From Candidatus Nomurabacteria bacterium (GTDB lineage: Bacteria; Patescibacteriota; Minisyncoccia; Phycocordibacterales; UBA9973), in NCBI GenBank assembly GCA_023267435.1, contig JAHFNH010000006.1, positions 1-39,676 of the forward strand: 39,676 nt of DNA, in the 5' to 3' direction. Shown piece by piece: positions 6,265 to 35,586 of the stretch; position 1 is the first letter of the stretch, and the number at the start of each line of letters is the position of its first letter. Below the pieces are notes generated by a model, which did not search any database, was not told the DNA's origin, and saw nothing but the letters and a program-made list of their open reading frames with translations. The position numbers were made by a program, and so were the translations under genes.

Positions 6265-6802
6265 TATTTTTTTCTTTTTTTATAATCTCGCACATCACTT
6301 TGCTTTTTTCGATAAGCTAGTAGTTTTTATTGCTGATATTTTTCCGTACTTAGTTATTTTGTCATCTGGTTTATTCTTGGCTATATATTTAAAAATTTCT
6401 TTTTCAAAAAATATCTTTAAAGATTTACTAAACAAATGGAGAGAAATTAGTTTTGTTTTTTGTTCTGTAGTTTTTGCTACAGTATTTGATCAAATATTAA
6501 AATTTTTAATTCATACCCCTAGACCATTTTTAGCATTACCAAATGTTCAGGCTCTTTTTTCTGAAACAGGTTTTGCTTTTCCGTCTGGGCATGCGACTTT
6601 TTTTTCAGCGCTCGCATTTTCAATTTTCTTTTTAAATAAAAAAGCCGGTTATGTCTTTATGTTTTTCGCATTACTCATAGGCTTGGCGCGCATCATTGCC
6701 GGAGTGCATTTTCCTATAGATATCTTGGGGGGATTCATTTTAGGAATTGGAACAGCTTATTTAGTAAAGTCCATATTTGCATATTTTTTTAAAAATGTAT
6801 AG
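6254..6802 (+). CDS. PAP2-family phosphatase
   Basis: PAP2 motifs 'KFLIHTPRPF', 'FPSGHATFFSALA', 'ARIIAGVHFPIDILGG'. Confidence 0.92.
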   Translation: MNNNIFFFFYNLAHHFAFFDKLVVFIADIFPYLVILSSGLFLAIYLKISFSKNIFKDLLNKWREISFVFCSVVFATVFDQILKFLIHTPRPFLALPNVQALFSETGFAFPSGHATFFSALAFSIFFLNKKAGYVFMFFALLIGLARIIAGVHFPIDILGGFILGIGTAYLVKSIFAYFFKNV

Positions 6803-25762: not shown

Positions 25763-25825
25763 ATGGCAAAAGGAAATAATGCTCACAAAAAGGAAGTAAA
25801 GAAACCAAAGAAGGCAAAGAAATAA
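25763..25825 (+). CDS. Small Lys-rich protein MAKGNNAHKKEVKKPKKAKK (20 aa)
   Basis: Short ORF (missing from the ORF track) directly followed by a strong terminator; its 3' half is duplicated downstream of the HNH gene. Confidence 0.6.
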   Translation: MAKGNNAHKKEVKKPKKAKK

Positions 25826-25869
25826 TCTTTGAAAAGCCCCCGAGCATAGCTCGGGGGCTTTTTGTTATT
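25793..25869 (+). repeat. Direct repeat copy A (77 bp), left boundary of HNH cassette
   Basis: Identical to 26662-26738 (offset 869). Confidence 0.95.
25832..25865 (+). terminator. Rho-independent terminator (copy A)
   Basis: aaaagcccccgagc-ata-gctcgggggctttt. Confidence 0.9.
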
Positions 25870-25943
25870 TTTTTATTTAATGCAATATATTAGTAAAATA
25901 ATTGGGTGTTTTGATTTAAAAAGTTTTGTGATATGCTGCAGCT

Positions 25944-26639
25944 ATGCGAAAAATTTTGGATGACATATTAAGTTATAGAGAAATGTGTGAAGCAGAAAAT
26001 CAGGAAGTTATGCAACACGGAATGAATTTTCATATGAATCATTTTTATTCTGTTGTATTAATGTCTCAAAAATCAAATGCCCCGTATTATGACAAAATTC
26101 ATAATGATGGAATAACTATAGAATATGAAGGTCATGATTTAGCAACAAATTATTCTGAAAATCCTAAAGAACAAGATCAGCCTGAAAAATTACCAAGTGG
26201 AAAATTAACACAAAATGGTTATTTCATTAAAGCAGTTAATGAATTTAAAAAAAATAAAAGTAAACCAGAGTTAGTTAAAGTTTATGAAAAAATATTACCA
26301 GGAACTTGGTCATTAAAAGGATATTTTGATTTGATTGATTATAATGTTGTTCATGATGGAAAACGTAATGTATTTAGATATATTTTAAAATTAGCTAATC
26401 GAGAAGAAAATTCTAGTACAGAAAAAGTAAAACTCGAACACACTAGATTAATTCCTTCACAGGTTAAAAGGGAAGTTTGGAAACGAGATCAAGGAAAATG
26501 TGTTTTGTGTAATGATACAAAAAACCTACATTTTGATCACGATTTACCCTTCTCAAGAGGTGGTACAAGTTTGTCGGTAAATAATGTTCGATTGCTTTGT
26601 ATGAAACATAATCTTCAAAAGTCGGATAAAATTGAATAA
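25944..26639 (+). CDS. HNH endonuclease with probable N-terminal SRA/YDG-like domain (type IV-like restriction enzyme candidate)
   Basis: C-terminal HNH 'PSQVKREVWKRDQGKCVLCNDTKNLHFDHDLPFSRGGTSLSVNNVRLLCMKHN'. N-terminal 'DGITIEYEGHDLA...DQPEKLPSGKLTQNGYFIKAVNEFK...VKVYEKILPGTWSLKGYFDLIDY' resembles SRA-HNH proteins. Confidence 0.88.
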   Translation: MRKILDDILSYREMCEAENQEVMQHGMNFHMNHFYSVVLMSQKSNAPYYDKIHNDGITIEYEGHDLATNYSENPKEQDQPEKLPSGKLTQNGYFIKAVNEFKKNKSKPELVKVYEKILPGTWSLKGYFDLIDYNVVHDGKRNVFRYILKLANREENSSTEKVKLEHTRLIPSQVKREVWKRDQGKCVLCNDTKNLHFDHDLPFSRGGTSLSVNNVRLLCMKHNLQKSDKIE

Positions 26640-26661
26640 AAAATATCTTTATAAAAAGAAA

Positions 26662-26738
26662 GAAGTAAAGAAACCAAAGAAGGCAAAGAAATAATCTTTG
26701 AAAAGCCCCCGAGCATAGCTCGGGGGCTTTTTGTTATT
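26662..26738 (+). repeat. Direct repeat copy B (77 bp), right boundary of HNH cassette
   Basis: Identical to 25793-25869; contains the last 11 codons (including stop) of the small gene plus its terminator. Confidence 0.95.
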
Positions 26739-27319: not shown

Positions 27320-27934
27320 TTGAATCTTTTTACTAAAAAAGAAGAAGCCTTGCTCAAGAAATTAAATACACCCACCAAGGTGCAGGACTTTTTAAATAGT
27401 CTGGAATTCAATTTTGAGCGGGATGGAAAAGATACTCTAAAATCACCAATTATGACCTTACGAGCAGGGAATGCGCATTGTATCGAAGGTGCAATTTTAG
27501 GGGCGTATATTCTCTCATTACACGGTTTTAAACCTCTTATAATGCATTTAGAGACCATTAAAGACAGGGATTTTGACCATGTTGTAGTTCCTTTCCAGCA
27601 AGATGGACTTTGGGGTGCATTATCGAAAACAAACCACGCAGTATTGCGTTATCGCGAGCCAGTGTATAAAAATATCCGTGAACTTGTGATGTCGTATTTT
27701 CATGAATACTTTTTAGATAATGGTACGAAAACCTTGCGCAGATATTCTCGTCCGCTTAATTTAAATGTTTTTGAAAAAAAATGGTTTCAAGAAGATGGCG
27801 ACTTGTGGGGGATAGATGAAGAACTCGATAAGATAAAGCACTACGATATAGCACCAAAAAGTGTTTTTAAAAAAATGCGCAAAGCAGACAAAATAGAAAT
27901 AGAAGCCGGTAAGATTTCAGAATATAAAATATAA
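27320..27934 (+). CDS. Hypothetical protein, transglutaminase/cysteine-protease-like (TTG start)
   Basis: 'TLRAGNAHCIEGAILGAYILSLHGFKPLIMHL..DFDHVVVPFQQDGLWGALSKTNHAVLRYREP': Cys..His arrangement. Confidence 0.6.
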   Translation: MNLFTKKEEALLKKLNTPTKVQDFLNSLEFNFERDGKDTLKSPIMTLRAGNAHCIEGAILGAYILSLHGFKPLIMHLETIKDRDFDHVVVPFQQDGLWGALSKTNHAVLRYREPVYKNIRELVMSYFHEYFLDNGTKTLRRYSRPLNLNVFEKKWFQEDGDLWGIDEELDKIKHYDIAPKSVFKKMRKADKIEIEAGKISEYKI

Positions 27935-35368: not shown

Positions 35369-35407
35369 TTCCCCAGTATTTGTACCTTGAAAATCTTCAT
35401 TTCTTAA

Positions 35408-35468
35408 GTCGGAAACAGCACTTTGGGCATCTCTATTTTATAGAGACGTCTAAAAAGCTGTTTCCGAC
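35408..35468 (+). promoter_or_regulatory. Structured 5' leader hairpin
   Basis: gtcggaaacagc (35408-35419) / gctgtttccgac (35457-35468), with inner tctcta/tagaga hairpin. Confidence 0.75.
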
Positions 35469-35508
35469 CCTGATTAATTTTTGATTTTTCATGGGTTTGG
35501 TCTAGCGG

Positions 35509-35533
35509 ACCGGTTCAATTGAACCGGTTCAAT
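35509..35533. repeat. Nested palindromes in leader
   Basis: ACCGGTTCAATTGAACCGGT (35509-35528) overlapping ATTGAACCGGTTCAAT (35518-35533), both perfect. Confidence 0.9.
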
Positions 35534-35586
35534 AAAAAATTGTAGATAACTAAATAAAATAATAATTTTTTAAAAACCAAAACAAA

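Follow-up and report, generated by a model that had tools for sequence, protein, structure and literature searches.

A restriction-type gene in the window, the 39,676-nucleotide stretch of DNA analysed here, is enclosed by two copies of the 3' end of a very small lysine-rich gene. With a probability of about 0.5, we interpret this arrangement as a cassette of around 0.87 kb, which lacks an integrase and restores the end of the gene at which it inserts. Restriction and toxin genes are known to turn up in genomes without a visible vehicle, and the arrangement looks like a recurrent means of moving single genes that carry no integration enzyme of their own. With a defined gene-end target, three different payloads and empty sites, the movement of such genes becomes directly testable in a minimal setting.

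The features of the locus are listed in Table 1. The direct repeat is 83 nt long, with 98% identity between the two copies and a spacing of 869 bp; both mismatches fall within its first 6 nt, leaving an inner stretch of 77 identical nucleotides. This stretch contains the last 10 codons of the small gene, its stop codon and the full terminator, and both copies retain the same 16-pair terminator hairpin. A preliminary description, made from the letters of the window, had reported identical 77-bp repeats 869 bp apart that contain the last 11 codons including the stop, with a single HNH gene in between, and our comparison agrees on all these points, as the payload gene is the sole long open reading frame between the copies. 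The distal repeat now serves as its terminator. An exact 77-mer at a spacing of 869 bp excludes a chance origin. In a scan of the assembled stretches of the window's genome, G000 (794.7 kb), there is no comparable gene-end repeat apart from the 77-mer; the bare 31-nt terminator palindrome has one further exact copy (C3:177839), while the coding part has none. Being unique in the 795-kb genome, the repeat is not a common terminator copy present at many loci, an explanation that the preliminary description had named as fatal to its reading. The same whole-genome scan reveals no other gene-end cassettes in G000, the other spaced repeats being promoter copies, paralogues or adhesin repeats, and no orphan tRNA 3' ends were found there. 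Judged by its small genome and by the relatives found for it, the host is presumably a member of the Patescibacteria (CPR).

Table 1. Features of the cassette locus and its surroundings (positions in the window)
Feature	Position	Strand	Remarks
Target: 20-aa Lys-rich small gene	25763..25825	+	ATG to TAA, MAKGNNAHKKEVKKPKKAKK and stop; 75 distinct family members in relatives
Proximal repeat: final codons with stop, terminator and a few nucleotides past it	25787..25869	+	identical part 25793-25869
Proximal intrinsic terminator hairpin	25830..25864	+	
Payload: 231-aa SRA-HNH protein, candidate type IV (modification-dependent) restriction endonuclease	25944..26639	+	fold match and motif
Distal repeat: orphan small-gene 3' end and its terminator	26656..26738	+	identical part 26662-26738
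Distal intrinsic terminator hairpin	26699..26733	+	
Flanking gene, 173 aa	26796..27317	+	weak match to BCAM0308 family NF040826, below cut-off
Flanking gene, 204 aa; marks the empty site	27320..27934	+	in congeners, homologues follow the single-copy small gene at once or within a few hundred bp

The small gene is one member of a family with the pattern M.KG....K.KKPKK..K, for which 37 of 100 relatives have a match at the DNA level. A pattern scan finds it in 12 of the 384 genomes of a class sample, the family being largely limited to the window's order. Our collection comprises 75 distinct copies, and for 66 of these the downstream sequence extends over at least 1.5 kb. The KKPKK codons near the end of the gene are strongly conserved, and in this the end is comparable to the 3' end of a tRNA gene. 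The small gene had been called an unusual insertion site, but a recurrent family with such a conserved end makes it less odd. A similar Lys-rich small gene, for example MGKKGRGDKPGREKKKPKKKKK, is also carried by phage-like contigs from IMG/VR (L124, L125, L127 and L129). No integrase was recognised by eye among the listed open reading frames of the few phage contigs with a KKPKK-end small gene, and only in G118 are a small gene and an integrase found on one contig, about 16 kb apart and without a distal copy.

Empty sites are present in six congeners (L192, L110, L029, L117, L257 and L265). In each, the small gene occurs once, with one 3' end and no insert, and the distance from its start to the homologue of the 204-aa flanking gene (64-77% identity) is 78-409 bp. 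Other congeners have a guaA-like or other gene between these two, and the HNH gene is absent from all congener small-gene sites compared. Compared with these congeners, which have a single small gene and a homologue of the 204-aa gene but not the HNH gene, the window therefore contains an insertion. This comparison of empty and filled sites is at the species level rather than the strain level, and the neighbouring 173-aa gene, for which the small-gene surroundings of relatives yielded no homologue, is also extra in the window. The empty sites are those that the preliminary description had proposed to look for, and the finding that it had named as its other refutation, tandem duplication of the small gene in relatives that lack empty sites, was not observed.

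Exactly three of the 75 distinct small genes, those of G000, G005 and G137, are followed, at a distance of 0.87-1.1 kb, by a second, orphan 3' end, and the payload differs in each, so the other payloads that had been sought between the copies do exist. In G000 it is the SRA-HNH nuclease. In G005, which belongs to the same genus as the window, a 94-aa HTH_17/excisionase-like protein and a 143-aa Doc/Fic toxin are encoded between copies that are 88% identical over 81 columns, both with terminators. In G137, from another family of the order, an alpha/beta hydrolase of 305 aa and the S9/dienelactone type lies between the small gene and the orphan end. Here, identity between the copies is short, with a 15-nt core and scattered matches around it; the intact small gene ends with KKPKKSKKPHIF before the stop, where the orphan reads KQRREKKKPKKAKK; the end of the intact gene, SKKPHIF, is therefore different yet in frame. 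In all three genomes, the block shared by the copies has its 5' boundary near codons 8-12 of the small gene. None of the three cassettes encodes a recombinase, in line with the absence of an integrase claimed earlier. If G000, with its one cassette per genome, is typical, random placement would be expected to give fewer than two additional hits at a single gene among about 75 sites; the small gene was the only target searched systematically, and three cases are few. Candidate pairs in G039, G105 and G409 turned out to be chance motif pairs, and an orphan KKPKKAKK end in G502 (L248), without a nearby small gene, was left aside.

The copies themselves contain information on their origin. In G000, the identity over 77 bp takes in a species-specific terminator and both copies could therefore be local; because they are identical, this genome alone cannot separate a cassette from duplication of the target in situ. 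In G005, the coding differences between the copies are almost all synonymous (AAG/AAA, AAA/AAG and TAG/TAA), with one E/K change at the edge of the match. In G137, the coding differences upstream of the core are three synonymous ones (AGA/AGG, GAG/GAA and AAA/AAG) plus one K/R change, and the orphan end is nearer to the small genes of other lineages (6 mismatches in 42 to L246) than to its own neighbour (about 10). Short as these sequences are, they suggest that the copies of G005 and G137 diverged while both were coding, i.e. in different genomes, therefore favouring an imported gene end over duplication in situ.

In the mechanism we propose for the cassette, the mobile unit would be a single payload transcription unit, accompanied by one copy of the 3' end and terminator of the small gene. 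Its entry would take place by recombination within the conserved KKPKK codons (core AARAARCCNAARAAR); the host small gene would then read on into the 3' end brought by the element, and the original 3' end of the host, presumably the distal copy, would be displaced downstream to become the terminator of the payload. The intermediate may be circular or linear, and the exchange, which would take place in trans, is probably site-specific rather than dependent on RecA. As no cassette encodes a recombinase, strand exchange must be performed in trans or by RecA, and host Xer and RecA are the obvious candidates because G000 has a single tyrosine recombinase of the Phage_integrase family. This protein scores as XerD/XerC/XerA-like. 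G005 and G137 also have one protein of this family each, in all three genomes located outside the cassette, and the Xer type is the only one of the recombinase families checked that is common to the three. Serine recombinase matches are present on other contigs of G000 (one, small) and G005, and there are none in G137; those of G005 include two large enzymes (C12:14743 and C20:6012, open frames of 547 and 497 aa), unlinked to the cassette. By inspection, the core has no likeness to a dif site. A donor circle, the responsible recombinase and a strain-level pair of empty and filled sites were not seen.

The alternative that survives best, possible but on the unlikely side, involves no dedicated element at all. 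DNA acquired through competence, or a circle formed by chance, in which the payload lies beside the small-gene 3' end of a relative, would recombine through RecA at the conserved gene end, by insertion-duplication or homology-facilitated illegitimate joining. Such an origin is consistent with a cassette without recombinase and with copies that appear to have diverged in separate genomes, and the identities in G000 and G005 are long enough for it. A Fic gene in L290, placed in a mirror-image duplication of the 5' end of a Rossmann-motif gene (see below), would also fit a role as anchor for any conserved coding stretch. However, the short core and scattered matches of G137 offer little for RecA, and the recurrence at nearly identical codons of one small gene also argues against this origin.

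Among known phenomena, the nearest precedent is insertion with a long target duplication, gene-3'-end integrative elements being the other one. Restriction systems can enter a genome with target duplications that are long and of variable length, around 100 bp in order of magnitude (PMC3874152 and PMC1643837, which cite Nobusato et al. 2000 and Furuta, Abe and Kobayashi 2010). If the payload had joined a staggered or end-filled break in this way, with about 80 bp of host sequence copied to either side, in the manner reported for the restriction-modification genes of Helicobacter pylori, then a restriction-type gene would be expected between direct repeats of that order (83 bp in G000, 81 columns in G005), with no transposase and with empty sites in relatives, here observed at the species level. 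The identical copies of G000, both of which may come from the target sequence, also fit. Nevertheless, we regard this explanation as improbable. Such duplications are described as variable, whereas in three genomes the repeats considered here start at almost identical codons, with the gene end and terminator restored, and three types of payload, non-restriction genes among them, are found at one gene end. In G137 the two ends differ in sequence, unlike two copies of one target, and the mostly synonymous mismatches in G005 and G137 are unexpected for a single sequence that was duplicated and then drifted.

Tandem duplication of the small gene followed by gain of a gene between the copies, or an artefact of assembly, is very unlikely. 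The assembly of the window's genome is of the metagenome type and has 22 contigs, but the independent assemblies of G005 and G137 show the same layout, many sites are empty and single-copy, and the distal copy lacks the 5' part of the gene while the rest is 98-100% identical.

At the sequence level, the HNH matches of the payload are weak (HNH_5, E 8e-4, below the Pfam cut-off), and there is no match to a PDB sequence at E 0.001. An AlphaFold model calculated with 23 homologues has a pLDDT of 82 and a pTM of 0.74. Foldseek superimposes this model onto the SRA domain of SUVH5 (E 7e-6) and onto MspJI (E 2e-4), with ScoMcrA and AspBHI also among the matches, and the DH...N...N motif (HxDH, N and N residues) is invariant across the 23 homologues. 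The model thus combines an SRA fold and an HNH motif in one chain, and the payload is predicted to be a candidate type IV restriction enzyme rather than a homing enzyme. TagI, ScoA3IV and TbiR51I are modification-dependent endonucleases of the SRA-HNH type (PMC6212794); they share with the payload an N-terminal SRA fold and a C-terminal HNH domain in one chain, but are distant in sequence, and the top fold matches of the payload are other SRA proteins. The payload is sporadic, with a full-length match in 1 of 80 genomes of the genus (G000 only) and in 9 of 384 in the class sample, and has homologues in other phyla; from this distribution, it looks horizontally acquired. Most of its SRA-HNH homologues elsewhere have no flanking gene-end repeat, and their contexts are many and unrelated.

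The preliminary description had offered two readings, a single-gene element that restores the 3' end of its target, and homing by a nuclease gene. The former is largely supported by the empty sites, the other payloads and the absence of an integrase from the cassette. The latter, insertion of the HNH endonuclease gene into its own cut site, is scarcely credible: an HNH domain is present, but the SRA-HNH architecture is typical of modification-dependent restriction, Doc and hydrolase payloads occupy the same gene end without a nuclease, and the payload homologues are dispersed over unrelated contexts.

The proposed cassette resembles genomic islands of the tRNA type and IMEs in the duplication of a gene 3' end and restoration of the reading frame, and a tRNA-Gln version exists in L066. 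Gene-3'-end integrative elements normally encode an integrase and many genes, whereas the cassettes considered here consist of a single payload unit with one or two genes and lack an integrase, the 231-aa SRA-HNH frame being the only one inside the cassette of G000. Integron cassettes are also compact payload units, with toxin-antitoxin and restriction-type cargo and a recombination site beside the gene. Unlike them, the repeat is a gene 3' end with its terminator, in which inspection reveals no paired R'/R'' attC cores (GTTRRRY/RYYYAAC), and G000 contains no integron integrase passing the cut-off, its only Phage_integrase match being the Xer-like protein (the integron integrase model gives it 140 bits, its cut-off being 265).

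Three loci elsewhere suggest that such payloads have a wider habit of this sort, although they may be of different kinds. In L066 (2314-4390), downstream of a tRNA-Gln gene come, in this order, a Fic gene, 26 nt copied from the tRNA 3' end, a homologue of the SRA-HNH gene and a degenerate copy; no integrase was recognised on this 7.1-kb contig. In L290 (7400-8600), a RhuM/Fic gene has on one side a truncated 5' end (MKNKYKIGVAGVGMVGVQVR and stop) and on the other the intact gene, whose N-terminus differs slightly; the shared stretch is 45 nt long with 98% identity, and the arrangement is a mirror image of the case in the window. In L288 (6739-11210), four degenerate repeats of about 85 nt are interspersed with an LMW-phosphatase-like open reading frame, HTH-Doc, a RelBE-like pair and other small open reading frames, which gives the locus an integron-like look. 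Flanking repeats at E 1e-8 or better are present at 4 of 20 Doc/Fic loci and at 27 of 773 random open reading frames, a rough control in which the 27 include contig-end artefacts and target cases, and the four Doc/Fic loci are of mixed kinds. This excess is weak support for a cassette habit, and most Doc homologues have no flanking repeats. A doubtful but more general proposal would be a new minimal mobile unit of small-genome bacteria, consisting of a payload gene or operon and a borrowed gene end (of a small-protein gene or a tRNA, or a 5' end), for whose movement a host recombinase, for example Xer, would be responsible. If true, toxin and restriction genes of small genomes would be arrayed, integron-like, where tRNA genes and small genes end, with no integron integrase involved.

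Several other repeats are present in G000. Repeats of 70-130 nt are located upstream of single genes of unknown function (C3 at 55-59 kb, 95-98 kb and 113-115 kb; C9 at 38-39 kb and 88-89 kb); they carry TTGACnnGTCAA and TGATATTGTTT motifs and resemble shared promoter/operator regions. On C19, an exact 39-nt repeat, GTTCAACAATAGCCCTTGTGCGACATAGTTGTAGAAGAG, occurs at 6323 and 7677, 1354 bp apart. Finally, two non-coding patches, 4719 bp apart, are shared (window 35379-35586 and C11 40098-40305).
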